Source: an uncultured Burkholderiales bacterium
Lineage (GTDB): Bacteria; Pseudomonadota; Gammaproteobacteria; Burkholderiales; Burkholderiaceae_C
NCBI GenBank assembly: GCA_903820745.1
Contig: CAIJIT010000296.1
Span: 1 to 64,000, forward strand
Reading direction: 5' to 3'
Length of the DNA: 64,000 bases
Of the stretch, positions 1,219 through 21,471 are shown one piece after another (the stretch's first letter is position 1; each line of letters begins with the position of its first letter). The position numbers and the translations under genes are program-made. Under the pieces are notes generated by a model, which saw nothing but the letters and a program-made list of their open reading frames with translations, was not told the origin of the DNA and made no database searches.

Positions 1219-1259
1219 GGCAGTTCAACCCAAGGATCGCAACTATCGCACCGCGAGGC
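1219..1259 (-). promoter_or_regulatory. Composite element, partial copy A, ahead of the Rieske oxygenase
   Basis: On the minus strand this reads GCGGTGCGATAGTTG and then GGGTTGAACTGCC, matching the core and gene-proximal half-site of the element seen intact at 5549-5606 and 19798-19857. The distal GGGTATT half-site is not recognisable; that position lies in the 3' end of the Bug gene. The proximal edge is 52 bp upstream of the oxygenase start. An internal promoter/operator function is inferred. Confidence 0.5.
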
Positions 1260-1272
1260 AGGCCTGACGGTG

Positions 1273-2310
1273 CTACAGCTGCTCGATCTTCGAATTGCTG
1301 ACGATCCGCTTCCAGGTCTCGATCTCGCGCAACTGGAAGTCGCGCAGTTCCTCGGCCCCTCCCGTAGACAACTCGGCGTTGAGCTTGCCGAAGAACTCGC
1401 GCGTCTCCGGCATTTTGGCGACGGTGACGAAATATTCGGCCAGCTTGTCCGCGACTGCTTTCGGCGCTTTGGATGAGACCACGGCCGCGACCCACACACT
1501 GGGGGTATAGCCGGCCAAGCCAACTTCGCGCGTGGTCGGCACATCCGGCAGCCGAGCGAAGCGCTGCTCGGAGGAAATCGCCAGCGCCCGGACCTTGCCC
1601 GACAGCGCCAGCGCCAGGGAGCCGGTAATGTCGACCACACCAAAATCGATGCTGCCGCCGACGACGGCGGTGATGACTTCAGATGATCCCTTGTACGGCA
1701 CGTTCGCGATGCGTGTTCCGGCGAGTTCGTTGAAACGCTCGGTGAACAGTTCGTAGGCCGGTGTGCCGGAACCGTAGTTGAGCTTGCCAGGCTGCTTCTT
1801 GGCACCGGCAATGAAGTCAGCCATGGACTTGTACGGTGAGTTGGCCGGCACGATCAGCAACATCGGCGCGCGCATCAAGATTGAGAGCGGCGTGAAATCC
1901 GCCACCGGATCATAGGACAGCTTCTTGTACAGCGCGGCGTTGGTGGCCAGCGGCGAGTTGGATCCGATCAGCACCGTGTAGCCATCGGGTTTGGCGTTGA
2001 GTACCGCCTGCACCGCCAGCAGACCGTTCGCACCCGGCTTGTTTTCGACCACCACGGGCACGCCGGCCAACTCGCCGATCTTGGCGGCGAAGTAGCGCGC
2101 TGATGTGTCGGAGCCGCTACCCGGCGGCAGCGGCACGACGAAATGGATCGCCCGCGACGGAAAGTCCTGCGCGCTCACGCCTGGCGCGTGCAGCAATGCC
2201 GCAAACAGACACAAGGCGGCCACGCCGCCGAAGACGAGCCGCGAAAGTCGCGGTCCGCATCCCAGCCTACGGCCGCAGAGCGGGGTCAAGATCAGGGTTG
2301 CATCAGTCAT
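1273..2310 (-). CDS. Bug-family tripartite tricarboxylate transporter receptor
   Basis: A 345-residue periplasmic solute receptor of the Bug/TctC family, which is greatly expanded in Burkholderiales and relatives. After a hydrophobic signal segment (about residues 25-48, ending GVSAQ) the mature protein begins DFPSRAIHFVVPLPPGSGSD, where the PPGSGSD loop is the usual ligand-carboxylate binding loop. NKPGANG and a C-terminal ETRE-FFGKLNAE-type segment are further family signs. The start at 2310 is preferred over an in-frame ATG at 2358 because AGGAGA lies seven bases upstream. No TctA/TctB membrane partners are adjacent, which is common for Bug proteins. It presumably captures a carboxylate related to the flanking catabolic genes (inference). 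Confidence 0.9.
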   Translation of the reverse strand: MTDATLILTPLCGRRLGCGPRLSRLVFGGVAALCLFAALLHAPGVSAQDFPSRAIHFVVPLPPGSGSDTSARYFAAKIGELAGVPVVVENKPGANGLLAVQAVLNAKPDGYTVLIGSNSPLATNAALYKKLSYDPVADFTPLSILMRAPMLLIVPANSPYKSMADFIAGAKKQPGKLNYGSGTPAYELFTERFNELAGTRIANVPYKGSSEVITAVVGGSIDFGVVDITGSLALALSGKVRALAISSEQRFARLPDVPTTREVGLAGYTPSVWVAAVVSSKAPKAVADKLAEYFVTVAKMPETREFFGKLNAELSTGGAEELRDFQLREIETWKRIVSNSKIEQL

Positions 2311-2354
2311 GAAAGTCTCCTGGTTATAGGTCAACCGACGGCATTGCTCGCGCG

Positions 2355-2885
2355 TCACTCAGCGGGTTTGCTCTTCGGTGCTTCGATCTCGATCTGCATC
2401 GTCTCTAGAAACCGGCAGATGCAGCTATAGAAACTTGCGACCATCGCGAGTTCGGTGATTTCGCGGTGGCTGAACATCGCGGCCACTTCGGCGAAGGTGG
2501 TGTCACTCACGCGGATGTCACGTGTCATCTCGGTGGCAAAGCGCAACACCGCCTGTTCTTTGGCCGGCAGCAATGAAAGTGGCTTACGGCCGGCCGCACA
2601 GTCCAGCTCCAAGTCACCCAGGCCTACGCGGCGCGCGAGCTTCTCATGCTGGAACAATTCATAGGGCGAAGCGCATAGATGGCCGACGCAGACGATGGCC
2701 AGTTGGCGCAAGCGCGCATCGAGCGTGAGGCTGGCGAAGAGTTCCTTGACAAAAGCAAACATCGGTGGCGCCAGGCCTTCAGCCCAGGCCATCATGCGGA
2801 ACACGTTGATGTCGCGAATCTTCGCCAACTCCTCCAGCGTCACCGGCTGCAGGTCGGCGGCCGTCGGATAGGGAATGCGTGCCAT
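2355..2885 (-). CDS. Carboxymuconolactone decarboxylase/AhpD-like protein
   Basis: A 176-residue all-helical protein with the carboxymuconolactone decarboxylase (CMD) core: LRQLAIVCVGHLCASPYELF followed by QHEKLARRVGL, then a second helical half around KEQAVLRFATEMTRD. CMD members include gamma-carboxymuconolactone decarboxylase and AhpD-type peroxidase partners. The CxxC of AhpD is absent here, so a redox role is unlikely. The gene sits 5 bp downstream of a MaoC-like gene and 44 bp before the Bug gene, so it is almost certainly co-transcribed. The reaction is unknown; the context suggests a decarboxylation or ring-cleavage-related step in the same pathway. Confidence 0.8.
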   Translation of the reverse strand: MARIPYPTAADLQPVTLEELAKIRDINVFRMMAWAEGLAPPMFAFVKELFASLTLDARLRQLAIVCVGHLCASPYELFQHEKLARRVGLGDLELDCAAGRKPLSLLPAKEQAVLRFATEMTRDIRVSDTTFAEVAAMFSHREITELAMVASFYSCICRFLETMQIEIEAPKSKPAE

Positions 2886-2890
2886 GCGAC

Positions 2891-3436
2891 TCAGCCCTGG
2901 AGCCGTGCGCGCGCTTGGCCAACGGCCACGCTGCCACCATGCTGGTTGATCGCGTAGGTGGAGATGACTGCGACGCCGCCCTTGCCATCGGCATCGGGAA
3001 TCAGTTCCTCGACGCGGCCGCCCAGCGTCAACGTGTCGCCGGGCCGCGTCACGTCGACAAAGCGCGCCGACATGCGCTGCAGGTCAGGCGTGCCGAAGAA
3101 ATCGGTAGCGACGCGGCCGAGATAGGCGAACACCGTCATGCCATGCGCGATGATGCCGCCGCTGCGCGCGGTCTTCGCAAAGGTTTCATCGTGGTGGATC
3201 GGGTTGAAGTCCCAGGAGGCGGCCGCGTATTTGACGATCTGCGTGCGCGTGACCGGCCCGTGATCAAAGGAGGCAATGTCCTGGCCCGGGCGCAATTCAG
3301 AGAAGCGGCGCGGCGTGCGTGGCCGGGGCTTGAACCAACCGGTCTCTCGATAGCCGAGCGGCTGCGTGCCGTCCTCGAGCCAGGTGTCGTAGTAGTACTC
3401 CTTGATCGTCGGCGCTTGTGTCGTGTCCTGTGTCAT
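2891..3436 (-). CDS. MaoC-like dehydratase/hydratase (hot-dog fold)
   Basis: A 181-residue single hot-dog protein related to (R)-specific enoyl-CoA hydratases. The hydratase motif is clear: WDFNPIHHDETFAKTARSGG followed by GIIAHGMTVFAY, containing the catalytic Asp/His pair (D-x-N-x-x-H) and the GxxxHG helix start. The ATG at 3436 is chosen because AGGAAC lies just upstream and the longer frame overlaps the previous gene. It is 13 bp from the gene at 3450-3881, which resembles an N-terminal dehydratase half. The two may form a heteromeric hydratase, as in mycobacterial HadAB/HadBC or steroid-pathway ChsH1/ChsH2 (inference from architecture). Confidence 0.85.
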   Translation of the reverse strand: MTQDTTQAPTIKEYYYDTWLEDGTQPLGYRETGWFKPRPRTPRRFSELRPGQDIASFDHGPVTRTQIVKYAAASWDFNPIHHDETFAKTARSGGIIAHGMTVFAYLGRVATDFFGTPDLQRMSARFVDVTRPGDTLTLGGRVEELIPDADGKGGVAVISTYAINQHGGSVAVGQARARLQG

Positions 3437-3449
3437 GGCTGTTCCTGGC

Positions 3450-3881
3450 TCAATGTTTGTGGACGAACGTCTGCCGGATCGTCTGCACGAGCTTGAGATC
3501 GAGGTCCGTGACGCGAGTCTCCATGACGACGATGTCCATCGGCCCACTGCGTTTGCCTGTCGCCTGGCGCACGTCGACGATGGCGATACGGTACTTCAAC
3601 ACGTCACCGGGTCTGAGCGGCCGCTCGTATTCGATCTCGTGTTCGCCATGCAGAAAGCGGGTTGCGTCCAGCCCGCAATCGCGCATCAAGAGCGCCATTT
3701 TTCCAGAGCGAAGCACATGCGAGAAGGTCGGCGGCGCAACGATGCCGCCGGGAACGTCGTCGTCCCAGAACGCGCTGTTGTCTTCACCTATCGCCGCAGC
3801 GAACTCCTTGATCTTGCCGGCTTCCACCGTGAGTGTGAACTCCGGTGAGGACTTTCCGATGATGGAACGATCCACGCTCAT
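3450..3881 (-). CDS. FAS1-DH/MaoC N-terminal-type dehydratase subunit
   Basis: A 143-residue hot-dog protein of the FAS1_DH_region (MaoC_dehydrat_N) class. It has the usual opening GKSSPEFTLTVEAGKIKEFA, then VPGGIVAPPTFSHVL, GEHEIEYERPLRPGDVL and a DIVVMETRVTD-type strand. This class lacks the full catalytic motif and normally pairs with a MaoC partner that supplies it; the next gene (2891-3436) has that motif. The start at 3881 follows a CGGAG ribosome site. The spacing of 13 bp to its partner and 50 bp from the ligase places it in one operon. Likely role: half of an enoyl-CoA hydratase acting on the CoA thioester made by the ligase (inference). Confidence 0.8.
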   Translation of the reverse strand: MSVDRSIIGKSSPEFTLTVEAGKIKEFAAAIGEDNSAFWDDDVPGGIVAPPTFSHVLRSGKMALLMRDCGLDATRFLHGEHEIEYERPLRPGDVLKYRIAIVDVRQATGKRSGPMDIVVMETRVTDLDLKLVQTIRQTFVHKH

Positions 3882-3931
3882 GTTTGTTGACTCCGTGAGA
3901 AATTTACTGAAGACGGTTTGAATAATCATGG

Positions 3932-5503
3932 CTACACACGCTCGGCAAACCCCTGCCACCAGGGTTCGCGCAACTCGCGCTTGAGCACCTTGCCGGCCGG
4001 ACTGCGCGGCAACTCGTCGCAAAAATCGATTGATTTCGGCACCTTGTAGTCGGCCAGTTCTGCACGGCAGAACGCCATGAGTTCCGCAGCCGTCGCCTCC
4101 TTGCCCAAGCGAGGCACGACGACGGCATGCACGGCCTCGCCCCAACGCGCGTCGGGCACGCCGATCACAGCCACCTCCAACACCGTCGGGTGCAAGGCCA
4201 GCACCTCTTCAATTTCGGCCGGAAAGATGTTGACGCCGCCGCTCTTGATCACGTCCTTGGCGCGATCGACGATGTAAACATAACCCTCATCGTCCATTCG
4301 GCCCAGGTCACCCAAGGTGCACCAATCGCCGCAAAAAGCCTCGGCGGTTTTCTCTGGCGCCTGAAAGTAGCCATCGAACAGCGTCGGCCCGCGCATAAAG
4401 AGGCTACCGACCTCGCCAATCGGGGTCGGGCTGCCATCCTCACTCTGCACGCGCACTTCCATGTCGGGCAGCGGCCGGCCAACGCAGCGCGTCTTCAGCC
4501 GCTGCTCCTCGGGCCGCAGGCTGGTCACCACGCCGGCCTCGGTCGCGCCGTAGAACTCGTGCAAGCCGACACCAGGGTAGCGCGCGAGCAGCGCATTCTT
4601 CACCGCAGTCGGAAGTGCCGAGGCGGCCGAGATAAAGGTGCGCAGTTGCGCCGGCAACAGCGCCTGCGCTTGCTGCTCCGGCAGCGCGACCACGGCGTTG
4701 TACATATAGGGGACCATCAGCGTCCAGGTGACGCGGTGCTCTTTCATCATCTGCAGCGCCGCGGCCGCGTCGAACTTCTGCAAAATGACCGAACTGCCGC
4801 CCAATGTGAGTTGCGCCAATGTGAAGCCGAACTGCACCGAATGGTGCGAAGGGCCCGACTGGAAATACACATCGCCGCGGCCGAAGCCGTACTCCTGTGC
4901 CCAGTAATGGTAGGCCAGCGAGCGATTGCGGTGGGTGATCAATGCGCCCTTGGGCTTGCCGGTCGTGCCCGAGGTATAGCCAAGATAGAACATGTCCATC
5001 TCGTCGACGCGACAGTCCGGCTCGTGGGCGGGCGCAGCGTCCAGCAACTCGGCCAGCGCAAGGCAGCGCGATCGCGAGCCATCCACATCGGGATGCGCGT
5101 CAACGTTGATGCAATGCAGTTGCGTACCCGCCGGCAAACCGGCGCGCGCGGCATCGACTCGCTCGAACATCTCATCGGCGAAAAAAATCGCGCGTATACC
5201 CGCGTCATGCAATGGATAGAGGAGGTCACGCGGGCCGAAGCGACTGTTCAGCAGCACCATGACCAGGCCGGACTTGGCCGCCGCGTAGCAGATGGCGACA
5301 TAGAGCACGCTGTTGGGCAGCATCACGCCGAAACGGTCGCCCTTGCGCAAACCCAGCGCGAGCAGCACATGGGCGATGCGGTTGCCCATTGCGCTGAGTT
5401 CGGAATGCGTCAGCGACTGACCATCGCAGGTCACGGCAAGTTGGCCGGGATTACGCTCCGCCGACAGGCGCAGCGAGCGGCCAACCGTCAGTTGGACCGG
5501 CAT
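3932..5503 (-). CDS. AMP-forming acyl-CoA ligase
   Basis: A 523-residue ANL-superfamily ligase forming a CoA thioester from a carboxylate, ATP and CoA. The AMP-binding loop YTSGTTGKPKG is at residues 176-186. The FYGATEAG segment, the hinge and adenylate motif GDLGRMDDEGYVYIVDRAKD, and the C-terminal lysine motif PRSPAGKVLKRELR are all present, so it should be active. It heads the minus-strand run that continues with two hot-dog proteins, a CMD-like protein, the Bug receptor and a Rieske oxygenase. Its upstream region carries composite element B. The substrate is not deducible; the medium or long-chain fatty acid, cinnamate and terpenoid-acid ligase families all look alike at this level. Confidence 0.9.
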   Translation of the reverse strand: MPVQLTVGRSLRLSAERNPGQLAVTCDGQSLTHSELSAMGNRIAHVLLALGLRKGDRFGVMLPNSVLYVAICYAAAKSGLVMVLLNSRFGPRDLLYPLHDAGIRAIFFADEMFERVDAARAGLPAGTQLHCINVDAHPDVDGSRSRCLALAELLDAAPAHEPDCRVDEMDMFYLGYTSGTTGKPKGALITHRNRSLAYHYWAQEYGFGRGDVYFQSGPSHHSVQFGFTLAQLTLGGSSVILQKFDAAAALQMMKEHRVTWTLMVPYMYNAVVALPEQQAQALLPAQLRTFISAASALPTAVKNALLARYPGVGLHEFYGATEAGVVTSLRPEEQRLKTRCVGRPLPDMEVRVQSEDGSPTPIGEVGSLFMRGPTLFDGYFQAPEKTAEAFCGDWCTLGDLGRMDDEGYVYIVDRAKDVIKSGGVNIFPAEIEEVLALHPTVLEVAVIGVPDARWGEAVHAVVVPRLGKEATAAELMAFCRAELADYKVPKSIDFCDELPRSPAGKVLKRELREPWWQGFAERV

Positions 5504-5548
5504 CGGCCTGTTCCATGATCGCGAGAGTCCATCCAGCCTCGTCCCATT

Positions 5549-5606
5549 GCATTTCGGTGACCCAACTATCGCACCGCCGAGCTGCGCTTGAACCCGTGGA
5601 ATACCC
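5549..5606 (-). promoter_or_regulatory. Composite element, copy B, ahead of the acyl-CoA ligase operon
   Basis: Read on the minus strand: GGGTATTCCACGGGTTC, then GCAGCTCGGCGGTGCGATAG, TTGGGTCACC and GAAATGC. The outer half-sites are inverted relative to each other (GCATTTC on the plus strand at 5549, AATACCC ending at 5606). The proximal edge is 45 bp upstream of the ligase ATG. The element lies in the divergent region shared with the shp operon but is oriented like the other copies, toward the minus-strand gene. A promoter/operator role is inferred. Confidence 0.6.
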
Positions 5607-5643
5607 TCAACATTCCGCAGCGAAGCGCAGCCTTGCAGGTAAA

Positions 5644-5671
5644 CAGCCGTGAGGGCTGATGCAGAGCATCC
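5644..5671. repeat. 28-bp dispersed repeat, copy 1
   Basis: A 28-bp sequence starting CAGCCGTGAGGG and ending GCATCC recurs at 52526-52553 with 25 of 28 identical bases. Both copies are intergenic and contain a small inverted repeat around ATGCAG(A/G)GCAT. This resembles a REP-like extragenic sequence. Only two copies are visible in the window, so its nature is uncertain. Confidence 0.4.
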
Positions 5672-5701
5672 TTAAGAATGGCTTAATTTGACGCCGTTAA
5701 G
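5671..5701 (+). promoter_or_regulatory. PmrA/QseB-type response-regulator box upstream of shp
   Basis: CTTAAG-AATGG-CTTAAT at 5671-5687 matches the direct repeat (C/T)TTAA-N5/6-(C/T)TTAA bound by PmrA/QseB/PreA-type OmpR-family regulators. A third half-site, GTTAAG, follows at 5696. It lies 38 bp upstream of the shp start, and the same operon encodes a regulator of that family, so autoregulation of the whole unit is likely (inference). Confidence 0.6.
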
Positions 5702-5724
5702 GTCAAGGCCTTTACGGAGTCGCA

Positions 5725-6632: not shown

Positions 6633-6635
6633 GCC

Positions 6636-7262: not shown

Positions 7263-7321
7263 GGTCGGCGCCGTCCAGACCAAATGCCCGATGATCGGTT
7301 GTGTCAACCCAAGGAATTTTC

Positions 7322-9342: not shown

Positions 9343-9479
9343 GCGGCGCGGCTTTGGCGACGACATCGGCAGCAGATGCACCGGCAAAGTTTGCTGCCCG
9401 TGCGGTTGATTTCCACTGCGCCGCACCGGTCGCACGCAAGGTCGGCCCAGAGCTTTTGTGAATCGCCCCTGATACGGAT

Positions 9480-10349
9480 TCAGGCGATGCTGGTGTCCGC
9501 TGGCTTGAGTTGATCGGCCGCCGGCATACGGCCCTCAAACCAAAGGCCTGCCGCCGCACGACCCATCGCGTTGCCATCGTGGCCCACCCCTGGCACGGTC
9601 ACGATCGTCCAATGGCAGGGCAAGCCCAGGCGGGCGGCTTGGCGGTGACCCATCTCATGAAAGTAATGCGCCCGTGCAAAGCGCGTCGGTCCTTGAGCCA
9701 ATGCCTCGGGATTGGACGGAAGGCTGGGGTCGGTAGTGTCCACGTCGCAGTCACCAGCCAGGATGGTCATGGGGTAAGCCAGCCAACGCGCCAGATCGGC
9801 AAGCTCCAGCCCCAGGCCGCCCAAGCCATGCGGGAAGGGCAGGTCCAGGGTGGGCAGCGTGTACCAACCCGGGTTCCCTGCCATCACCGCTTCATACAAC
9901 CCATGTTCCTGCGTGCCCAGCAAGCGATGCGCGAACTGCCCGCCCGCCGAATGCCCGAACAGGCGAACCACTTGGCGCCGGGTCACACCGCCGGCGCGCA
10001 AGGCCTGCATCACCCGCGGCAAAATGGCATAGAACCACTCGTCGCGCGCGCGCACCGTCCCGTCAGGGGCCCGCAGTTGGCCGTTGTTGTAATTTTCGGC
10101 TTCGGGAAAATGGCTGGAGGCAAAGGTCGTCGCGACGATCAGCAGACGGTGCTTTTCGGCCGCATCAATCCAGAAGTCACGGTAGTCATCACCGTTGCGC
10201 TTCATGCCATGTTGCACCAGAACGACGGCATCGTCCGGGCCATAGGACGCCGGACGGTAGGTATGCACCGTCAAGGGTTTGTCGGGGTGCAAGGGATCGA
10301 CGTAATGCAGGGCATCGCGCCCGACGGCGGGGTTGAGAACCAGAGTCAT
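9480..10349 (-). CDS. Alpha/beta hydrolase, esterase/depolymerase-like
   Basis: A 289-residue serine hydrolase with a LVQHGMKRNGDDYRD oxyanion-side strand and the nucleophile elbow GHSAGG (residues 162-167 approx.). The final His is probably in VPGVGHDGNAM, and the acid may be D in AGDCDVDT. No signal peptide is visible, so it is likely cytoplasmic. It is the last gene of the ABC importer operon, 9 bp after the second ATPase. That suggests it hydrolyses an imported ester or amide, but the substrate is unknown. It is convergent with the kinase gene across a 137-bp spacer that holds no obvious strong terminator. Confidence 0.8.
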   Translation of the reverse strand: MTLVLNPAVGRDALHYVDPLHPDKPLTVHTYRPASYGPDDAVVLVQHGMKRNGDDYRDFWIDAAEKHRLLIVATTFASSHFPEAENYNNGQLRAPDGTVRARDEWFYAILPRVMQALRAGGVTRRQVVRLFGHSAGGQFAHRLLGTQEHGLYEAVMAGNPGWYTLPTLDLPFPHGLGGLGLELADLARWLAYPMTILAGDCDVDTTDPSLPSNPEALAQGPTRFARAHYFHEMGHRQAARLGLPCHWTIVTVPGVGHDGNAMGRAAAGLWFEGRMPAADQLKPADTSIA

Positions 10350-10358
10350 GGGAATTCC

Positions 10359-11363: not shown

Positions 11364-12379
11364 GGCGCCTCCCCCACCGGTAAAGTCGGCGCCGTCACCG
11401 GGTGATGGCACCTGAAACTGCGCGCCCCTTGTTCGGTAAGCGCTGGTTCTTCAATCCGGCAAATGGCAGTTGCCACTGCACAGCGGGTCGAAAAGGCGCA
11501 ACCGGCCGGCCGCGCATCCAACCGGGGCGCCATGCCGTCGATCTGGGCCAGTCGTTGCCCTCGCAGCCCCGCGTCGGGCACCGCACCGAGCAGACCCTGG
11601 GTGTAGGGGTGGCGGGGGTCCTTCAGTACCTGCACCGCAATGCCGGTCTCCACGATGCGACCGGCATACATGACCGCAATGCGGTCGGCCAGTTCGGCCA
11701 CGACCGCAAGGTCATGAGTGATCCACAACAAGGCGGCCCCGCTGTCCTGCACCAGACGCCTCATTTCGAACAGAATCTGGCCCTGGATGGTCACATCCAG
11801 GGCGGTGGTGGGTTCGTCCGCAATGATCAGGTCGGGTTGATTGATGAGCGCCGTAGCGATGGCCACCCGCTGTCGCATACCGCCTGAGAACTCGTGTGGA
11901 AACTGCTTCAGCCGTTCATAGGGCGAGGCAATGCCGACAAGGGTCAGGACCTTGGCGGCCAAGTCCCAGGCCTGTGCTCGGGTGGCAGCGCGATGTTCCT
12001 GCACCGCCTCGGCCATCTGCTCCCCGATGGTCAGTACCGGGTTGAGCGTCATTTGCGGATCCTGGAAGATCATGGCGATACGGTCGCCGCGCAGGCTGCG
12101 CAGCCGTTCGGGCGATGCTTGGCGCAAGTCCTCGCCGTTAAACAGCACCTCGCCCGCCAGCACCTCGCCCGGAGCATCCACCAAGCCCGTGATGGAAAAG
12201 CCCGTCACGCTCTTGCCCGAGCCGGACTCGCCGACCAGGCCCAGCACCTCGCCCCGGACGACTTGGAGGTCCACGCCATCTACCGCCGGCCAAGCCCCGC
12301 TGGCGAGGTGAAAAACCGTGCGCAGACCTCGCACCTGCAACAGGGGCGGGACCGCGGCGTCTGGCCTTGGCCGAATCAC
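11360..12379 (-). CDS. Peptide-type ABC transporter ATP-binding protein (OppD/DppD)
   Basis: A 339-residue ATPase with Walker A GLVGESGSGKSVT, signature FSGGMRQRVAIA and Walker B LIIADEPTTALD. The C-terminal OppD-type region contains CAFSTRCAVATAICR. The apparent start is GTG at 12379 with AAGGGGG upstream. It lies 58 bp after the permease at 12438-13334 and overlaps the next ATPase by 4 bp. It energises import of the solute bound by the family 5 receptor of the same operon. Confidence 0.92.
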   Translation of the reverse strand: MIRPRPDAAVPPLLQVRGLRTVFHLASGAWPAVDGVDLQVVRGEVLGLVGESGSGKSVTGFSITGLVDAPGEVLAGEVLFNGEDLRQASPERLRSLRGDRIAMIFQDPQMTLNPVLTIGEQMAEAVQEHRAATRAQAWDLAAKVLTLVGIASPYERLKQFPHEFSGGMRQRVAIATALINQPDLIIADEPTTALDVTIQGQILFEMRRLVQDSGAALLWITHDLAVVAELADRIAVMYAGRIVETGIAVQVLKDPRHPYTQGLLGAVPDAGLRGQRLAQIDGMAPRLDARPAGCAFSTRCAVATAICRIEEPALTEQGARSFRCHHPVTAPTLPVGEAP

Positions 12380-12437
12380 TGCACCCCCTTGAGCAGCGCA
12401 TGCTGCTGGATATGCGCTGGGCAGCGACCTGACTGAC

Positions 12438-13334
12438 TCATGCTCGATAGGCGTCGAAGCTGTGACGCAAACGCTCGCCCACCAGGTTCAACGATGTGAT
12501 CAGGGCCAGCAATGCCAGGCCGGGAAAGAACGAGATCCAGTACTCGCCCGAGAGCAGAAATTCAAACCCGTTGGCAATCAGCAAGCCCAGGGACGGCTGA
12601 GTGATTGGCACCCCCACGCCCAGGAACGAGAGTGTGGCCTCCAGGGTGATGGCCCCGGCCACGCTGACCGTGGCCACCACCAGAACCGCACCGATGCTGT
12701 TGGGCAGCAAGTGAGCCCGCATGATGTAGCCTGCAGGCAGTCCGAGATTGACCGCCGCCTCGATATATTCCTTGCGGCGCTCCACCAGGGCAGCCGCCCG
12801 CATGATGCGTGCGTAATGGGCCCATTGCACGATGACGATGGCCAGGATGACCTTGTCGACCCCGCGCCCCATGGCAGCCAGCAGCACCAGCGCCACCAAC
12901 AAAGACGGAAATCCGAGGATGAAGTCCACCAGACGCATCAGCGCCGCATCGATGAGGCCCCCGAACTGCGCCGCCGCCAAGCCCACTGCGACACCAATGG
13001 ACAGCGCCACCACCGAAGCGGCCAGGCCCACGAACAAGCTGGTGCGAAGGCCGTAAACGATGGCACTCAGCATGTCGCGCCCCTGCGCGTCCGAGCCCAG
13101 CCAGAAGGTCAGGCCGGTCATCGACGAGGCGCCCGGTGGCTGGCGGTTGTCCATGACGTTGAGCGCGCTCAGGTCATAGGGGTTCTGCGGCACCAGGAAT
13201 GGGCCCAGCAACGCCACGAGTACCAGCAATGCCAGCACCAGCAAGGCCGAACGCGCCGTCGGCTGGCGGCTCATGCGCTGCAGCAACTGGCGGCGCATCG
13301 GGGTGTCGGCATCCACCGGGGGCTGCAGGTTCAC
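12438..13334 (-). CDS. Peptide-type ABC transporter permease (OppC/DppC)
   Basis: A 298-residue permease with an N-terminal cytoplasmic tail, a first helix ALLVLALLVLVALLGPFLV, a periplasmic loop (WLGSDAQGRDMLSAIVYG, the family's GTDxxGRD hallmark) and the EAA loop EAAVNLGLPAGYIMRAHLLP. The GTG at 13334 is preferred to the ATG at 13298 because GGAGG lies seven bases upstream and it overlaps the oppB-like stop as GTGA. It pairs with the permease at 13331-14308. Confidence 0.9.
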   Translation of the reverse strand: MNLQPPVDADTPMRRQLLQRMSRQPTARSALLVLALLVLVALLGPFLVPQNPYDLSALNVMDNRQPPGASSMTGLTFWLGSDAQGRDMLSAIVYGLRTSLFVGLAASVVALSIGVAVGLAAAQFGGLIDAALMRLVDFILGFPSLLVALVLLAAMGRGVDKVILAIVIVQWAHYARIMRAAALVERRKEYIEAAVNLGLPAGYIMRAHLLPNSIGAVLVVATVSVAGAITLEATLSFLGVGVPITQPSLGLLIANGFEFLLSGEYWISFFPGLALLALITSLNLVGERLRHSFDAYRA

Positions 13335-14308
13335 GCAGCATCCTCCACCAGCCGCACCCGGGGGTCCAGCGCGGCATACAGCAAGTCCACCAACAAGTTG
13401 ACTGTCATGAAAAGCAGGGTTGCCATCAGGATATAGGCCACCACCACCGGTCGGTCGAGTTGGTAGATGCTGTCGATCAGCAGCTTGCCGATGCCAGGCC
13501 AGGCGAATATCGTCTCCGTGATGGTGGAAAACGCCACCAGGCTGCCAAACTCCATGCCCACCACAGTCACGACGGGAATCAGGATATTGCGCAGGATATG
13601 CCGACGCACGATACGCTGGGGCCGCACGCCCTTGGCCCGGGCGTACTTCACGTAATCCTGAGCATTTGCCTGGGTGGTTCCCACGGCCACCAACCGGATC
13701 ATCAGGGCCATATTGGGAATGGCCAGATTCAATGCGGGCAGCACCAGGTGACTCAGTCCATCGCTGGTCAAAATCCCCAAGGGCACACCCAGCAGCAGCA
13801 TGGTCTCGCCCCGCCCCGCCGTGGGCAGCCAGCCCAACAACACCGAGAAAACGAGGATCAGCATCATCCCTTTCCAGAAGTTGGGCAAGGAGTAGCCCAG
13901 CAAGGTGCCTGCCAGGATCAGTCGCGAACCGCGCGATTGCGGGTTCAGTCCCACCAGCAGCCCGAGCGGCAAGCCCAGAGACACCGACAAGGTCAGGGCA
14001 ATGACGACCAGTTCCACCGTCGCCGGCAGCCGCGAAACGATGAGCTCGATCGCCGGGACACCGTGCACAAACGAACGCCCAAGTTCGCCTTGCAGCGCAT
14101 GGCCCAGAAAAACGAAATACTGTTGCCACATCGGCAGATCCAGCCCCAAGCGGTGCACCAGGGCAGCACGCTCCATCGCGCTGGACTGCGGCGGCACCAG
14201 CAGTTCGATGGGATCACCGATGCCGTAGACCGCGACGAAGACCACCACCGAGGCCGCCAGCAGCACGCCTACGGCCTGGATCAACCGTTGCAATGCGTAG
14301 CTTGCCAT
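13331..14308 (-). CDS. Peptide-type ABC transporter permease (OppB/DppB)
   Basis: A 325-residue six-helix permease beginning MASYALQRLIQAVGVLLAAS, with the typical N-terminal helix, a long periplasmic loop (LGLDLPMWQQYFVFLGHALQ, then GELGRSF) and the EAA motif DYVKYARAKGVRPQRIVRRH. It is 25 bp downstream of the receptor gene and overlaps the second permease by 4 bp. Confidence 0.92.
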   Translation of the reverse strand: MASYALQRLIQAVGVLLAASVVVFVAVYGIGDPIELLVPPQSSAMERAALVHRLGLDLPMWQQYFVFLGHALQGELGRSFVHGVPAIELIVSRLPATVELVVIALTLSVSLGLPLGLLVGLNPQSRGSRLILAGTLLGYSLPNFWKGMMLILVFSVLLGWLPTAGRGETMLLLGVPLGILTSDGLSHLVLPALNLAIPNMALMIRLVAVGTTQANAQDYVKYARAKGVRPQRIVRRHILRNILIPVVTVVGMEFGSLVAFSTITETIFAWPGIGKLLIDSIYQLDRPVVVAYILMATLLFMTVNLLVDLLYAALDPRVRLVEDAA

Positions 14309-14333
14309 GATGGATGTCGGGTCGCCAAGTCAG

Positions 14334-16016
14334 TCATTTGCCCGGCTTGGCCAAGGCTCCCTTGGCTGCGCCGGCGGGGGTCACCGACATGGCCAAGGTG
14401 TACTGGTCGTTGCGGCCCTTGACAGCCAGGTCCGCACGGTAGGCCCACAAGGTGTTCTCGAAATGCAAGGGGATGAAAGCATGGGTCTCCAGCAGGCGGC
14501 TCACGCCCTCGCGCAAGAGTTCGGCCCGTTTGTCGTCGTCCATGGTGACAATGGCCTTGCCGACCAGGGCATCGAGTTCCTTGTCGGCCAGGCCACCGTA
14601 ATTGGAGCCCCCGCGAGTCTTCTTGTCGTCAGGCGAGACGGACCAGTAACGCAGGAAGGAACTGCCCTCGGCGGAGCCCCAGCCGCCCAGCGAGAAACTG
14701 AATTCCTTTTTGGCGCGGCGAGGGAAATACAAAGCCCGGGTCATGACGTCCACTTTGGTACGGATGCCGATCTGGCTGAAGTAGGCGGCCACCGCCTGGG
14801 TAATCTGGCCATCGTTGATGTAGCGGTCATTGGTGGCCGACAGCGTCAGCTCGAAGCCGTTCGGGTAACCCGCCTCGCGCAACAATTGCCGCGCCAACTT
14901 CGGGTCGTAGCGGACAACAGGAGGGGTGGGCAGCGTGCCGAACATGCCGGTGGGTAGAAACTGGTGGGCCGGCGCAACTGCCCCATCCATCAGGCGCTTG
15001 GCAATGGCATCGCGGTCGATGGCCAGGGACAGGGCTCGGCGCACGCGCAGGTCCTGCAGGGGATTGCCGCCCTTCTCCCCCTGATCATCGCGCACCAGGG
15101 GGCTTGGGTTGCGGCCCACATCCAACTGGAAGAAGATGACTCGAGACGAGGGGGTCGAGGTGACGGCGAAACGCTTGTCCTTGAGCAGACGCTCCAGGTC
15201 GCGCGCAGCGGGATTCTCTACGAGGTCATACTCCCCTGCCATCAAACCGGCCAGGCGAGGCCCGGCATTGGTCACAGTCACGAACTTCACGGCATCCCAG
15301 GTGGGTCTTGGCCCCCAATGACCTTCATGCCGCAGCAACTCGATCCCCGAGCCGCGCACATAGCTCTTGAGCTTGTAGGGACCGGTGCCAACGGCCACAG
15401 TGCCCTCGTTGAACTGGGTGACGGTGGGCCAAGGTCCGGTGACGCCACAACCGGCCTCAGGTGCGAAGCTGAGCTTGCCATGCGGCACGATCGACTGCGA
15501 CAGGATACGCACCCCGGAGAGCAGGCGGGGCAGCAGCGGCTCGGGCTCCACCGTCGTGATCACCAGGGTGTGGGGATCGGGCGCCTCCACCGCGCTCATA
15601 TTGTTGATGACATCCTTGCCCCCACCGGCAATATTGGTCTCGTTCTTGACGATGCGGCACAAGGTGAAGATGAAGTCATCGGCCGTGAAGGGAGCGCCAT
15701 TGGAGAATTTCACGCCCTTGCGAAGGCTGAAAGTCCATTTGTTGGCCCCGTCGTTCTTCCAGGCTGCAGCCAACGACGGTCGCAGGCGCTGGTTCTCGTC
15801 GTTATCCACCAGCGCATCGAAGACATGGGCGGTCAAGGCGTTGTTGGGGGCCAGCTCATGGTAATGCGGATCCATCGCTGTGGGCTCGGAGGACAGCGCA
15901 ATCCGCAGGCTCTGGGCCGCAGCAGGCAGACTGAGCAGATTTGCCAGGATGCACAGGCCCAAAATAGCAGCGATGCGCAAGGCGCGGAATTCAGTCGTCA
16001 AAGGGGCTCTCCTCAT
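14334..16016 (-). CDS. Family 5 ABC solute-binding protein (DppA/OppA type)
   Basis: An exported receptor of up to 560 residues, first in the ABC importer operon. A signal peptide (LRIAAILGLCILANLLSLPA, then AAQS) precedes the family 5 core SLRIALSSEPTAMDPHYHE, and KWTFSLRKGVKFSNGAPFTA is the conserved SBP_bac_5 segment. The ATG at 16016 has no good ribosome site. A TTG at 16001 has GAGGAGA correctly spaced upstream and still leaves a full signal peptide, so it is a serious alternative start. Two tandem copies of the composite element lie immediately upstream. Family members bind peptides, nickel complexes, opines and other solutes; the ligand here is unknown. Confidence 0.9.
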   Translation of the reverse strand: MRRAPLTTEFRALRIAAILGLCILANLLSLPAAAQSLRIALSSEPTAMDPHYHELAPNNALTAHVFDALVDNDENQRLRPSLAAAWKNDGANKWTFSLRKGVKFSNGAPFTADDFIFTLCRIVKNETNIAGGGKDVINNMSAVEAPDPHTLVITTVEPEPLLPRLLSGVRILSQSIVPHGKLSFAPEAGCGVTGPWPTVTQFNEGTVAVGTGPYKLKSYVRGSGIELLRHEGHWGPRPTWDAVKFVTVTNAGPRLAGLMAGEYDLVENPAARDLERLLKDKRFAVTSTPSSRVIFFQLDVGRNPSPLVRDDQGEKGGNPLQDLRVRRALSLAIDRDAIAKRLMDGAVAPAHQFLPTGMFGTLPTPPVVRYDPKLARQLLREAGYPNGFELTLSATNDRYINDGQITQAVAAYFSQIGIRTKVDVMTRALYFPRRAKKEFSFSLGGWGSAEGSSFLRYWSVSPDDKKTRGGSNYGGLADKELDALVGKAIVTMDDDKRAELLREGVSRLLETHAFIPLHFENTLWAYRADLAVKGRNDQYTLAMSVTPAGAAKGALAKPGK

Positions 16017-16031
16017 CGGCCGGTACAGACA

Positions 16032-16094
16032 GGGGTTTCACCCACGGGCCCAAGTATTGCATCTCGAAGCCGCCCCCGGACCGCTGAAATACCC
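16032..16094 (-). promoter_or_regulatory. Composite element, copy C1, ahead of the ABC importer
   Basis: On the minus strand: GGGTATTTCAGCGGTCC, GGCGGCTTCGAGATGCAATA, CTTGGGCCCG and GGGTGAAACCCC. The layout is the same as copy B, with the proximal half-site 15 bp from the annotated ATG, or about 30 bp from the alternative TTG. If the element is a promoter, transcription would start within or just after the core. Function inferred. Confidence 0.6.
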
Positions 16095-16128
16095 TCGACA
16101 AAACCGCAGCAATACGCAGCCATGACGC

Positions 16129-16187
16129 GGCATTTCACCAAGTTTTTGTCCGCATCCCCGAACTGCGTTTGAACCACTGGAATACCC
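16129..16187 (-). promoter_or_regulatory. Composite element, copy C2, tandem to C1
   Basis: A second copy in the same orientation, about 95 bp upstream of C1: GGGTATTCCAGTGGTTC, ACGCAGTTCGGGGATGCG and CTTGGTGAAATGCC on the minus strand. The core is more diverged: the GATAGTTGG part is replaced by GACAAAAACTTGG. It lies between the divergent importer and epoxide hydrolase genes and could influence either. Confidence 0.5.
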
Positions 16188-16299
16188 GCATCCCCCCGAA
16201 GCAAGGGCGCTACCTGGCGCCGCTGCAGCGGAGCTGTCGCCTGACCCATGCGAGACTCGGCATGCCAACCCGCAACGCAACCCAGCAAAGGCGGACAAA

Positions 16300-17442: not shown

Positions 17443-17539
17443 GTCGACGACCGAGGGCTTAAGGAATCGACGCCACCGTCGCCCTCTCTGATCTCAAGGC
17501 GCTGAGTTTGGCGCTGCTGCTTGAACTGACAAAGGCAAC

Positions 17540-17567
17540 AAAAAGCCCAATGAAAATTGGGCTTTTT
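17540..17567. terminator. Strong bidirectional intrinsic terminator
   Basis: A perfect 12-bp stem, AAAAAGCCCAAT paired with ATTGGGCTTTTT around a GAAA tetraloop. The A-run and T-run make it work in both directions. It separates the convergent epoxide hydrolase (ending 17442) and c-haem protein (ending 17583). Confidence 0.95.
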
Positions 17568-17582
17568 GCTTGCCAACAGACC

Positions 17583-19733
17583 TTAGCGGGCGAGCGGGTC
17601 AGGCCGGAACTGGATATGCACGGCACGCGGCTTCGAGCCTTTGCCACCCTCCATCAGCCAAGGCGTGCGGTCACCACTGGTACTCCACAAGCCACGGCCT
17701 TTCCAGCCAGCGTTGGGGTCATCGATGCGGCCATCCATTCCCTTGGCGAAAAATCCCAAGGGGTAAGGGATGCGCAGGTTGATCATCTTGCCGTCCTTGT
17801 AAGCAATAAATCCCCCGTTCAGGTTGCCGGTTGCGATCGGTACGTTCTCGCCCAAACCCAGCGTGTTGTGCTGGTCGACCCAGGTGTAATAACTAGCCTC
17901 GGCGCTATATTGTTCGAAGCCCTCATGGCCCGGGCCGGGGAAGCGATGGTAGGCAAAGCCTTCTGCACAATGGTTGCCGGTGGCGTTCGGCCCGTTCAGC
18001 GGTCCCTTGCATTTGCGCCGGTCGAAGCTGACGAAGCCGCCATTTGAGGCCGAGCCCCAGACCACGCCGTTCTTGTCAATGTCGCCACCGCGCAAACCCA
18101 CATATTCCTTCGGCAAGGCATAGAACTCGGAAAGCTTGGTCTTCGGATCGAACCGCATAAAGCCCGGCGTGCCGGCGAAGGTATTGAACGTGTACCAGAT
18201 CGTGCCGTCGGTCGGGTGCGGCATCACACCGTAAGGGCCGGAGCCAGCCACGCGCATGTCCTTGCCGGCCTCAGCCGGCTTGTCGGGTTCGGTGTAGGCA
18301 TCGACCTGCCCGTTGCCGTTGGTATCGAGCACCCAAGGCGCCCAGCCCTGGGCCTTTACCGCGTCACCGGTCTCGTCATAGATGCGGGAATTGAACCAAC
18401 CCGCCACAGGACCGGAGCCGGAGAACCAGACGGTGTTGTCTGCGTCATAGCCAAACTGCGGATGGTGGGTGCCGAAACAGGTGTCGATGAGGTTGTACTT
18501 CATCGTCTTGGGGTCCAGCATCGTGGCCTGGCGCTGCGAGAACTCCATCGGGAAGGCCTGGACTGACGGATGGTCCTTGTTCTTCATGCACCACTCGGGA
18601 TTGACCTCGCCACGCACATTGGCGGCAAACCAAACGCGGCCCTTCTGGTCGAACATGCCATTGTGGTTGTTCGCCTTCTGCGACCAGATTTTTTCCTCGC
18701 CCCAATAGGGCGAAGGGGCGAACGGCAACGCCAAGGCCGTGGCGTGGAAGCGGCCCGCATAGGACTCCGGGACGCTCTCGCTCTGCACCGTCATCCTGAA
18801 GTTGGTCACCGAGTGCGTCTTCGGATCGAGGATCGGGATGTCGTCGCTTGAATACTCGGCCGAGCCATAAAGCGGTCCGTAAGGATTGACCCTGGGGTTG
18901 CGCCGGTCTGAAGAGATCAAGTCATGCAGGAAGGTCTTTTCGGTGCCCCATTCCCACTGCGTAATGACCATATTGCGCTCGACGCCCTGTGGCCGCACCG
19001 GCTTGGTCTTGGGCAACTCGCCCTTGGCGATGCGGTCGGTCCATTCGCCGAAATATTTGAATGGCGCGCCACCGAGTTGCACGGCCAACCGATCCATCAT
19101 CCATTTGCCGCTGTGGCCAGAGGCGATGCGCCGCGCCCAGGCTTGCTCACCGGTCTCGAAGGTCCCCAAGGCAGCAGGGATGGTGCGCGTCGATTCCTGG
19201 CCGAGCGCATGGCAACCGACACAGTCGGTGTTGTTCATGCGCCGGCGCCAGATCTCTTGCGTGATGTCCTTGGGAATGCTGGTCGTACCGCCAAAGTCCT
19301 TGGCCGCTGGCATCTTCAGCATCGAGTACCAATACACCGCCGGGTAGTAATGGGCTGCGGCTGCAGGCGTGGGCGCGGGTACCGCGCTGTGGTTGAGGAG
19401 CTGGCCCGGTTTGCCGCGCAGCTTGGGTGAATCGACGAGGTCATAGCCGCGCACCCAGACCTGGTAATTGACATTCGGCGGAAGGTCAGGAATGAGGTAG
19501 CGCCCTTTGTCGTCGGTCACGACGATGCGCGCGAATTTGGTCGGGAGCTCGTTGGTCTCGGCGATCACCCAGACCCCGGCTTCCGGTCCTTTCGGGCCGC
19601 GCACAACGCCGCCGATGTCCACGGCGCCGATCGATACCGCAGGCGCTGCTGCTGCGGCTGCAACTGCTGAAGTTGCGGCCATCAGCAGGGCCGCGACGAG
19701 CGCGCCAAGTCCCAGTTGGTCTCTGATTTTCAT
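17583..19733 (-). CDS. Large exported c-haem protein: carboxypeptidase-regulatory-like domain plus lyase/propeller-like region
   Basis: A 716-residue secreted protein. A signal peptide (residues 1-30, Ala-rich) is followed by a carboxypeptidase-regulatory-like beta-sandwich (about 38-100: GGVVRGPKGPEAGVWVIAET, then DDKGRYLIPDLPPNVNYQVW). A c-type haem motif CVGCH is at 171-175. The rest resembles a streptogramin-lyase/Vgb-type beta-propeller with repeated segments such as NHNGMFDQKGRVWFAAN, DADNTVWFSGSG, PHPTDGTIWYTFNTFAG and DIDKNGVVWGSASNGG. The start at 19733 has AGGAGA upstream; an ATG 84 bp earlier does not. It is preceded by composite element D. The activity is unknown: a periplasmic redox enzyme acting on a polymer or hydrophobic substrate is conceivable, but nothing in the sequence proves it. 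Confidence 0.8.
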   Translation of the reverse strand: MKIRDQLGLGALVAALLMAATSAVAAAAAAPAVSIGAVDIGGVVRGPKGPEAGVWVIAETNELPTKFARIVVTDDKGRYLIPDLPPNVNYQVWVRGYDLVDSPKLRGKPGQLLNHSAVPAPTPAAAAHYYPAVYWYSMLKMPAAKDFGGTTSIPKDITQEIWRRRMNNTDCVGCHALGQESTRTIPAALGTFETGEQAWARRIASGHSGKWMMDRLAVQLGGAPFKYFGEWTDRIAKGELPKTKPVRPQGVERNMVITQWEWGTEKTFLHDLISSDRRNPRVNPYGPLYGSAEYSSDDIPILDPKTHSVTNFRMTVQSESVPESYAGRFHATALALPFAPSPYWGEEKIWSQKANNHNGMFDQKGRVWFAANVRGEVNPEWCMKNKDHPSVQAFPMEFSQRQATMLDPKTMKYNLIDTCFGTHHPQFGYDADNTVWFSGSGPVAGWFNSRIYDETGDAVKAQGWAPWVLDTNGNGQVDAYTEPDKPAEAGKDMRVAGSGPYGVMPHPTDGTIWYTFNTFAGTPGFMRFDPKTKLSEFYALPKEYVGLRGGDIDKNGVVWGSASNGGFVSFDRRKCKGPLNGPNATGNHCAEGFAYHRFPGPGHEGFEQYSAEASYYTWVDQHNTLGLGENVPIATGNLNGGFIAYKDGKMINLRIPYPLGFFAKGMDGRIDDPNAGWKGRGLWSTSGDRTPWLMEGGKGSKPRAVHIQFRPDPLAR

Positions 19734-19797
19734 TCTCTTGTCTCCTCTTATTCTTGGCCCATCCACTCGAGCACCATCGGGTCGGTGGGCATCGGAT

Positions 19798-19857
19798 GGG
19801 TATTTCAACCCCTCCAACTATCGCACCTCGGAGCCGTGGTCGAACTGCTGAATACCC
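19798..19857 (-). promoter_or_regulatory. Composite element, copy D, ahead of the c-haem propeller protein
   Basis: The clearest copy. Minus strand: GGGTATTCAGCAGTTC, CACGGCTCCGAGGTGCGATA, GTTGGAGGGG and TTGAAATACCC. The outer arms GGGTATTTCAACC (plus, 19798) and GAATACCC (plus, ending 19857) are inverted half-sites. The proximal edge is 64 bp from the start codon. Similarity to copy E continues outward to about 19930. Confidence 0.65.
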
Positions 19858-20139
19858 TTGCTACCCCTGCAGGCATGGGTTGCCCAGGCGATGTCCATTG
19901 CGTGGCGCCAACCACAACTGATCCACAGCGGATATCAGCCGAGCGGTCGAGGGCGACTGCGACGTAAACCTCTGGTGACGCTTGACAAAGCCGATGGTCT
20001 TGCCATGTTGAGCAAGTGACTCTTGGCCGCGCGCATGCCGGCTGGGCGGAAGGCGTGCAGATGCATCCACGATCACCTGCGCAGCAAGTCTGCACGGCGA
20101 ACAGCTCAGGCGGTCGCCGGAAGAACAGCGCCAGACCCG
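19858..20139. other. Gene-free spacer with an extension of the element repeat
   Basis: From 19858 to about 19930 the sequence remains similar to 21472-21544, which follows copy E: CTTGC(T/C)ACCCCTGC, then CCACA(A/G)CTGATCCA(C/T)AGCG. Beyond 19930 no convincing gene is visible. Short minus-strand frames exist but have no family signature or ribosome site. The spacer may carry the promoter of the c-haem gene and decayed sequence. Confidence 0.4.
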
Positions 20140-21213
20140 TCAGACGCGATCCGTGCGGCAGATGCGGCGCCGCTGGCACAGCCCAATCAATGCAAGACCG
20201 CCCAAGAGCATTGCATAAGTGGTTGGCTCGGGCACGGCTTGTACAGCGTTGAAGCCGGCGATCTGTTCGCCGACATAGTCGCCGACGAATTCGTTGAGCG
20301 TGTTGCCCACCGGGGTCTGCACGCTCGTGGGGTCGACCAGGCCCTCACCGTCGAAGCTCCCCTTGTACTTGTAGAACTCCAGCCGGATCACGACCGAGGG
20401 GTCGCCTTTCAGGTTCAAGTCCTTGGAAACCTCATCGACGAAACCGGGTTGCAGCACTTGCCACTCAATCTCGGTCTCGGGCTTATCGTGCAGACCGGCG
20501 ACGCCCGGGTTCTCGAACGGGTGGTGGCCGCCCATCAACTCGTTCAGGTCGACGTTTTGAGGCAATGTGGTGCTCACCATCTTGACCCAGAAGGCATTTT
20601 TCTCGGGCACCACCGGGTCGACCTTCTGGGCCTGGAAGACGGCCACCACAGGCGCGGCCGGCTGCGCCGGCGGCGGCGGCGTGAAAGTCACCGACGGAAT
20701 GGCCACATTGGCGCCGGTCAGCTGACCGGGCGACGACTCCAGCAACCAGCTATAGGTGGTGCGGGTGGGGGAGCCGATGGTGCTGACGCCGAAGTGATCG
20801 CAAGGCACGTTCGGGTAGCCTACATTGCCGAATTTCCAGCAGCTTTCGCCGGGCGTGTTGAAGACGCCCGACGCGGTACCTGTACTCCACACGCCATTCG
20901 TGTAGCTGGCCATATAGGTCACGCGGGCACCGATCACCTTGCCGGTGCCGTCCAGCAGGTCGCTCACCGTGGGCAGGCCGTAGCGTTCGACGTCGCCCGG
21001 CGAGGACGTACCGAAGTTGCGGTTGAGCCCGAAGACGTCGCTGATCTGCGCACGGCTGATGCCCTCGAGTTCGATCTCGAAACCGCGGGCGGTACTCCCG
21101 GTGTCGTTGACGACATCAAAATTAGCCAGCGACCCGAAGGTTACGGTGGCGTTGGACATCATGGGAACGACGGCAAGCAGAACACCGGCGGCTAGACAGC
21201 TGAGTTTGAACAT
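20140..21213 (-). CDS. PEP-CTERM sorted exported protein of unknown function
   Basis: A 357-residue secreted protein: signal peptide (MFKLSCLAAGVLLAVVPMMS, then NA), a beta-rich body, and a C-terminal PEP-CTERM signal with VPEP at 327-330, a hydrophobic helix (TYAMLLGGLALIGL) and an Arg cluster QRRR. Such tails are processed by exosortase and anchor proteins to the envelope or exopolysaccharide. The start at 21213 follows AAGGAA. The body has no recognised enzymatic motif; it contains GFEIELEGISRAQISDVFGL and a proline-rich stretch TFTPPPPAQPAAP near residue 180. No exosortase is in the window. Composite element E lies 193 bp upstream, linking it to the proposed regulon. Confidence 0.85.
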   Translation of the reverse strand: MFKLSCLAAGVLLAVVPMMSNATVTFGSLANFDVVNDTGSTARGFEIELEGISRAQISDVFGLNRNFGTSSPGDVERYGLPTVSDLLDGTGKVIGARVTYMASYTNGVWSTGTASGVFNTPGESCWKFGNVGYPNVPCDHFGVSTIGSPTRTTYSWLLESSPGQLTGANVAIPSVTFTPPPPAQPAAPVVAVFQAQKVDPVVPEKNAFWVKMVSTTLPQNVDLNELMGGHHPFENPGVAGLHDKPETEIEWQVLQPGFVDEVSKDLNLKGDPSVVIRLEFYKYKGSFDGEGLVDPTSVQTPVGNTLNEFVGDYVGEQIAGFNAVQAVPEPTTYAMLLGGLALIGLCQRRRICRTDRV

Positions 21214-21406
21214 GTTTATTTCCTTCAACGGGCATGGCTGGCCCTATGTGTTGCAAGCAATGGTGAAGTGCAAGGCATTCGCGGCGCTGCACCATGAACT
21301 TGGATCGGCTCCGATGCCCCATGCCCCGGAACCTGCCAAGCCAGAATTCATCCTGCATACGCTGCGGCGGTCGCCGATTGATGCTGCGCAGCCTCCTTGA
21401 CAGATC

Positions 21407-21471
21407 GGCATTTCAACCAAAGGGGCCTATGTACCGGATCTCGGAGCCGCTCTGGTACCGCTGAAATACCC
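21407..21471 (-). promoter_or_regulatory. Composite element, copy E, ahead of the PEP-CTERM gene
   Basis: Minus strand: GGGTATTTCAGCGGTACC, GAGCGGCTCCGAGATCCGGT, ACATAGGCCCCTTTGG and TTGAAATGCC. The half-sites are intact; the core is diverged at GCGATAG (here CCGGTACATAG). It is 193 bp upstream of the start codon, farther than the other copies. Flanking similarity to copy D runs on to about 21544. Confidence 0.55.

Follow-up and report, generated by a model that had tools for sequence, protein, structure and literature searches.

The window analysed here is a stretch of 64,000 nucleotides from an uncultured Burkholderiales bacterium (contig CAIJIT010000296.1, positions 1 to 64,000), in which six related elements lie on the minus strand ahead of unrelated genes. 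Judging from sequence comparisons, these elements are very probably solo, decayed 3' termini (oriIS) of insertion sequences (IS) of the IS91 family, belonging to the ISPps1/ISCR8 group. This identification follows from their homology to the ends of elements that carry a transposase, the outer boundary at CCTATCCGT that those elements share, the lack of a recognisable transposase in the window and a decay that affects the copies part by part. The assembly holding the window, hereafter G000, amounts to 5.12 Mb in 357 contigs and is 99% complete, the window's contig measuring 70 kb. The six putative ends, named below after the first position given for each in the initial annotation, are the following:

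1212..1265, minus strand: copy 1219, right half only, before the Rieske oxygenase gene (profiles; 46 nt at 78% shared with the end of the IS91 element of pAKD34)
5546..5640, minus strand: copy 5549, full composite with degraded terminus, before the acyl-CoA ligase gene (alignment, profiles)
16025..16117, minus strand: copy 16032, the member of a tandem pair nearer to the gene, ahead of the ATP-binding cassette (ABC) importer operon (alignment, profiles)
16122..16210, minus strand: copy 16129, the more distant member of this pair, with a degraded core (profiles)
19793..19930, minus strand: copy 19798, about 138 bp, before the c-haem protein gene (142-column alignment with 21407; profile)
21400..21544, minus strand: copy 21407, about 145 bp, core degraded and terminus kept, before the PEP-CTERM gene (aligned over 111 bp at 62% with the 3' end of the IS91 element G017:C159)

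The stretches reported by the initial annotation were all found at their positions on the minus strand, with the described layout common to the six. Profiles built from five copies were used to search for the sixth, and the resulting E-values were 6e-14, 2e-10, 3e-10 and 2e-9 for copies 21407, 16032, 5549 and 19798, respectively, followed by 1e-5 for 16129 and 0.0026 for the partial copy 1219. The best unrelated match across the six runs had an E-value of 0.63 to 2.5. Since every copy was recovered from the other five, chance can be excluded. The benzoate, oxidase and carbon monoxide dehydrogenase (CODH) regions had been described as free of copies, and two models agreed with this, showing no additional convincing copy in these regions or anywhere else in the window (next best E-values 0.43 and 0.75). 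The shared layout thus stood, and the length of about 60 bp did not: homology extends further, copies 19798 and 21407 aligning over 142 bp at 68% and copies 21407 and 16032 over 99 bp at 71%. Its left edge differs from copy to copy, and the copies are mutually 22-34% diverged where they can be aligned. The members of the tandem pair 16129/16032 are about 97 bp apart. Copy 1219 retains the right half alone, with the core GGTGCGATAGTTGC and the terminus GGTTGAACTGCCTATCCGT.

A further copy, found in the genome G178 of another genus, was compared with 72,556 plasmid records. Fifty-five records matched, and the 15 listed all match the right half only. In pKV29 and pAKD34, 152 nt separate this module from the annotated IS91-family transposase that precedes it (PF04986 in both, with PF14319 also in that of pKV29). 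A C. fluminis plasmid and C. testosteroni R5-28 likewise have it after sequence of this transposase, which there is partial and unannotated. The module stops at ...CCTATCCGT in these four plasmids, the flanks of all four diverging after CCGT. When the pKV29 element was used as a megablast query, the alignments ended at this very base (query position 1948) in at least 7 other records among the best 30 of 73. The alignments of 22 other records among these best 30 ended at 1710, most of them being annotated as ISPps1, whose subterminal part differs. ISPps1 is also the annotation of the pADP-1 copy. The transposase-bearing elements L144, L145, L148 and L115 from genomes of the family end in the same module, that of L148 with five mismatches to the pattern. 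The outer boundary of copy 1219 could be located by comparing genomes of the genus: the sequences of G000 and G015 part from that of G017 three bases after CCGT. The module presumably also resembles an oriIS string of ISCR elements.

The relationship was recovered in both directions by profile searches. A full-composite model, built from the window copies only and run against 70 kb of sequence, detected the IS ends L103, L102 and L129 with E-values of 8e-7, 3e-6 and 3e-6, respectively, and the G178 copy at 2e-14. Reciprocally, a profile was made from the G178 copy and the 3' end of the L115 element, which comes from a same-genus genome, and from these two sequences only. The six window copies were its top six matches, with E-values of 9e-12, 7e-6, 3e-5, 0.0012, 0.0015 and 0.014 for 21407, 16032, 19798, 5549, 16129 and 1219, respectively. 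The next match had an E-value of 3.4 and the reversed window gave 5.7 or worse. The left half of the layout in the initial annotation corresponds to the subterminal part of the L115-type element.

Several results weigh against the identification as IS91 ends. The full-composite model detected the ends of L115, L144 and L104 only with E-values of 0.009-0.04. A 46-nt profile built from ten IS ends placed four window copies at the top with weak E-values (7e-4, 0.013, 0.2 and 0.58) and missed 5549 and 16129. The left half is found in the L115 type alone, the ISPps1 and pCNB types having other sequence at this place. A search for a complete element failed, no PF04986 (Y2_Tnp) domain being detected in G000 at an E-value of 1e-3; no convincing transposase remnant was found beside the window copies (best tblastn E-value 0.08), and neither the left ends of these copies nor their target tetranucleotides could be fixed. 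Finally, all window copies face genes, a placement that transposition alone does not explain. The end is not common to all IS91 elements either: a fuzzy end pattern was found at 4 of 35 transposase loci (L144, L145, L148 and L108), in a scan where the pattern was strict, many loci ended at the 1,500 nt flank or at contig ends, and L112 and L114 were outside.

As for the group, a LexA-like box CTGT-N8-ACAG lies shortly before the transposase start in the ISPps1-type elements L102 (1269), L127 (1670), L128 (1588) and L144 (961), whereas L115 has no exact match to it. A LexA box before the transposase gene is also reported for the ISCR8 of Pseudomonas sp. ADP2 (PMC13393415). Because the LexA box and the origin of the pADP-1 copy fit ISCR8, we treated ISPps1 and ISCR8 as one group, by inference.

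Whole-genome scans with the models scored 150 first-look candidates per genome, and all copy counts are therefore lower bounds. In a first scan of G000 only the six window copies were below an E-value of 0.3, a copy on contig C244 being at 0.50, an outcome of scoring only 150 of 994 candidates. With the full-composite model and a threshold of 0.01, matches were obtained in 3 of 18 genomes of the genus, with at least 6 in G000, 4 in G015 and 4 in G017. A right-half model built from ten sequences yielded at least 9, 5 and 9, respectively, and none among the scored candidates of the other 15 genomes. Relaxing its threshold to 0.5 gave some match in 10 of the 18 genomes; among the matches above 0.01, G017:C66 and G017:C4:12497 were inspected. 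The list of the initial annotation was confined to the window's contig, to which the right-half model adds four G000 copies outside the window, on contigs C79, C188, C244 and C230. The C79 copy was also detected by an exact pattern (core plus TTGAA), which occurs in 3 of 399 genomes of the family (G000, G178 and G275; this sample was without G015 and G017), with zero matches in the rows inspected of a reversed control. Copy 5549 is kept in G015 and G017, and so is copy 1219, both to much the same degree as their surroundings.

The genes behind the copies are not one pathway. In the window, the downstream genes and modules are:

132..1166, minus strand: Rieske/VanA_C oxygenase gene, downstream of 1219 (PF00355 and PF19112 on the longer open reading frame (ORF) 132-1811; ATG at 1166)
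1273..5503, minus strand: module downstream of 5549, with AMP ligase, two MaoC/FAS1-type dehydratases, CMD-like protein (below Pfam's cut-off) and TctC receptor (Pfam)
9480..16016, minus strand: module downstream of 16129/16032, with an Opp/Nik-type ABC importer (NCBIfam scores below curated cut-offs) and the ORF 9480-10349 (no Pfam match)
17583..19733, minus strand: gene described earlier as c-haem protein, downstream of 19798 (one CVGCH motif at residue 171; sole Pfam match a weak CarboxypepD_reg)
20140..21213, minus strand: PEP-CTERM protein gene, downstream of 21407 (PF07589)

Elsewhere in G000, the C79 copy precedes a nitrile hydratase operon (PF02979 alpha and PF02211 beta in the G015 orthologue) and the C244 copy a TctC receptor gene, whose ORF starts 52 nt past the end (PF03401 in the G015 orthologue). 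In relatives, copies are followed by TctC (PF03401), nucleotidyltransferase (PF01909) and caspase-domain (PF00656) genes, the G178 copy by a wax ester synthase (WS/DGAT) gene and one G017 copy by a flavocytochrome c sulfide dehydrogenase pair.

The initial annotation had interpreted the elements as a shared operator defining a catabolic regulon, that is, a dimeric regulator would bridge inverted half-sites at the promoter of each unit. Two observations speak for such a regulator. All six copies are on one strand and upstream of minus-strand starts within the expected 200 bp or so, the outer end being 9-187 nt from the start codon (46, 43, 60 and 187 nt to its first base for 1219, 5549, 19798 and 21407, respectively, and 9 nt for 16032 if ATG 16016 is the start). 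In addition, the core GGTGCGATAGTTG is identical in 1219, 5549, 19798 and the G017 fccAB copy despite differing flanks. Against it, the inverted half-sites are not a fixed feature, the right arm of 5549 being degraded and the gap between the parts varying. Where it could be measured, the core-to-TTGAAAT gap was always 8 nt outside G000 (six ends), and within G000 it is 8 (21407, C244, C188 and, by reading, 1219), 6 (16032), 3 (19798) or 0 (C79). Different copies also miss different parts: the core is degraded in 16129 and 21407, the terminus in 5549 and 16129. The element is 95-100% identical between G000 and G015/G017, similar to its flanks (91-100%), and no extra constraint on it was seen among these three genomes. 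Conservation upstream of orthologues, on which the initial annotation had staked its proposal, fails at the close c-haem homologues L058 and L059 (79% and 83% nt identity), where the ribosome-binding site is kept and the element is absent; in L058-L060 neither model gave anything better than an E-value of 0.39, L058 covering 0.9 kb before the gene. Given, moreover, the unrelated genes that follow the copies and the occurrence of the same sequence at the end of IS91 elements, the pathway regulon is very improbable.

A riboswitch-like cis-regulatory RNA in the 5' leaders was considered as well, since folding predicts pairing between the two arms for 21407 and, in part, for 16129 and 16032. Rfam gave zero matches at the gathering threshold over the whole window and, up to an E-value of 5, a single match in 1000-22500, located elsewhere. 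The folds are inconsistent, with z-scores from -4.2 (1219, which has no left arm) to +1.0. A structured RNA was therefore rejected and we give it next to no credence. Folded as DNA, nine 58-nt ends had z-scores from -2.1 (21407) to +1.6, without a consistent hairpin.

Under the identification as solo oriIS ends, rolling-circle transposition of the IS91 type would have left a one-directional chain of fossil ends. As gene modules accumulated, these might have arisen by one-ended transposition of right-end pieces, or from full elements by deletion. In IS91-type transposition, copying starts at oriIS, proceeds to terIS and sometimes runs past it (PMC9676059, PMC3189936). Direct-repeat ends with gene modules between them are thus the expected result of repeated insertion, or of adjacent DNA being carried along. 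On one G178 contig, the composite, the WS/DGAT gene and the beginning of an IS91 transposase all point the same way. The examined part of pCNB (49 kb) has five ends on one strand: one follows an annotated IS91 transposase, two follow transposase C-terminal sequence, and the other two are a solo pair, a 130-bp end and a 60-bp end in tandem, resembling 16129/16032. The pCNB ends are 98-100% identical to the ends of transposase-bearing elements and are thus recent. A right-end piece made by one-ended transposition would be expected to have a GAAC-like tetranucleotide at its left edge. The 60-bp piece begins directly after GAACG of element sequence; the left edges of the window copies are undefined.

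Gene content around the copies differs between genomes of the genus. G017 does not have the window block 9334-23118, with its importer, epoxide hydrolase, c-haem and PEP-CTERM genes, at the corresponding position; a flavocytochrome c sulfide dehydrogenase module with its own composite upstream is found there instead. The c-haem gene is absent from the whole of G015 and G017, in a search for the block that was aimed at this gene only; its two nearest named relatives are in Burkholderiales and Comamonadaceae assemblies. Past copy 1219, the Rieske gene follows in G000 and in G015 (98% in G015). In G017 its place is taken by a fragment of a second repeat, described below, and by part of an IS91 transposase that runs the opposite way; the best G017 counterpart of the Rieske gene is a 33% homologue on another contig. 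This transposase fragment (L061 1697-2062, on G017:C4), beyond the outer side of the orthologue, belongs to another subgroup (51-54% amino acid identity).

As a variant, instead of being what is left of full-length elements, the copies could be a family resembling miniature inverted-repeat transposable elements (MITEs) that an IS91 transposase mobilised in trans. The tandem pair separated by about 97 bp and the lack of transposase remnants in the window fit this variant, as do the IS801 right-end pieces of 229, 360 and 679 nt that arise by transposition (PMC3189936). One-ended transposition of right-end pieces accounts for 26.3% of IS801 insertions in that study. The same source ascribes most genomic IS801 fragments to reorganisation. 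With unequal left edges of homology among the copies, and a left arm that is subterminal sequence of the IS91 element L115, we consider a MITE-like family rather unlikely.

Whether remnants or a moved family, the ends could have been domesticated, that is, kept by selection as outward promoters giving the units shared basal expression, which is compatible with an IS91 origin. Of 17 genome loci, 4 with unclear orientation were excluded (G000:C188, G017:C61, G017:C66 and G275:C268, the last at a contig end). Among the 13 classified loci, 12 face the start of a coding sequence (two-sided binomial 0.003), the sole other one being G000:C230. Outside the five loci of the initial annotation, 7 of 8 face a gene start (about 0.07). 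These counts are to be read with the fact that orientation was judged by eye, that the core set had been chosen for gene starts and that 8 of the 12 gene-facing loci were represented, by a copy or by an orthologue, in the model-building sequences. On plasmids, 6 of 11 loci are gene-facing, as counted with PLSDB's incomplete gene table and genes accepted up to about 730 nt away. The mobile repeat favouring promoters, kept as an alternative in the initial annotation, was thus right in kind, its preference for promoters being borne out in part, by the genome loci more than by the plasmid loci.

By reading, 4 of 5 gene-proximal window copies (1219, 5549, 16032 and 19798) have kept an extended -10-like core GGTGCGATAGT/GATGCAATACT (TGCGATAGT core), and oriIS promoters of ISCR1 raise downstream expression 13-15 fold (PMC6218425). 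However, a sigma-70 consensus promoter was found in none of five leader regions, conservation among relatives is no higher than that of the flanks, and descent from an IS origin would conserve the core as well. With the orientation bias and the ISCR1 precedent on one side, and no sigma-70 consensus on the other, promoter reuse of some ends is possible, though we lean against it. If it occurs, the gene downstream may receive its start from an outward-facing, extended -10-like sequence within the core (TGC-G/A-ATA-G/C-T). Somewhat more doubtful is the broader proposal that one-directionally scattered IS91 termini, having lost their transposase and with the survivors facing gene starts, act as a portable promoter set for separate modules, namely the oxygenase, the ligase, the importer and the c-haem protein, and flavocytochrome c in a same-genus genome. 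Were the ends to drive transcription, a region of mixed origin would gain common expression.

Comparison with known systems places the window copies as follows. Their 3' terminal module and its outer boundary are of the same kind as in ISPps1/ISCR8 (IS91 family, HUH Y2 transposase; pADP-1, pKV29), but the window has ends only, without transposase, and these are diverged from one another. Like the right-end pieces of IS801, which were formed by one-ended transposition, they are short and comprise the right end only; unlike those pieces, which are new, 229-679 nt long and bounded by a left tetranucleotide, they are old and their left edges are undefined (PMC3189936). Repeated solo IS91 end pieces directly before catabolic genes are already in print: two 45-bp pieces lie upstream of the metaldehyde genes on a plasmid, whereas here six are spread over 20 kb of a 70-kb contig (PMC9676059). 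On pCNB, direct-repeat ends including the tandem of 130 and 60 bp also stand on one strand among catabolic genes, but these ends are recent and 3 of 5 still follow transposase sequence. As in ISCR1, the oriIS region faces downstream genes; the outward promoter activity of ISCR1 was shown by experiment (PMC6218425), whereas no consensus promoter was found in the five leaders of the window. A chain of such ends was not found in a literature search covering titles and abstract openings, with subscription papers outside it. Fossil oriIS ends would record how elements of the IS91/ISCR8 type help to build degradation clusters, in their direction, order and module edges. They also call for caution, as motifs from which a regulon is called can be transposon termini.

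Other features of the window, from a library scan of its proteins, are:

7301-7993: response regulator
32305-33231: protein with a helix-turn-helix (HTH), shikimate-kinase-like
39749-40264: Lrp/AsnC protein

Upstream of copy 21407, small plus-strand genes (21660-22330) resemble by reading a DUF4160/DUF2442-type pair.

The second repeat, of MITE-like appearance, lies at 52391-52553 of the window (about 162 bp), has terminal inverted repeats like GGGATGCTCTGCATAA and overlaps the end of the ORF 48648-52406. It has 36 matches in G000 at an E-value of 0.01, including itself and partial pieces, the fuller copies being 87-96% identical. One fragment abuts a window copy:

5644..5671, plus strand: piece of the second, high-copy repeat, directly adjoining copy 5549 on its inner side

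Second-repeat fragments also adjoin oriIS ends at L123 2743-2757, on the inner side of the genome's own nitrile-hydratase copy, and at L061 2084-2098, on the outer side of the copy-1219 orthologue in G017. IS91 ends and the second repeat may share a target preference.

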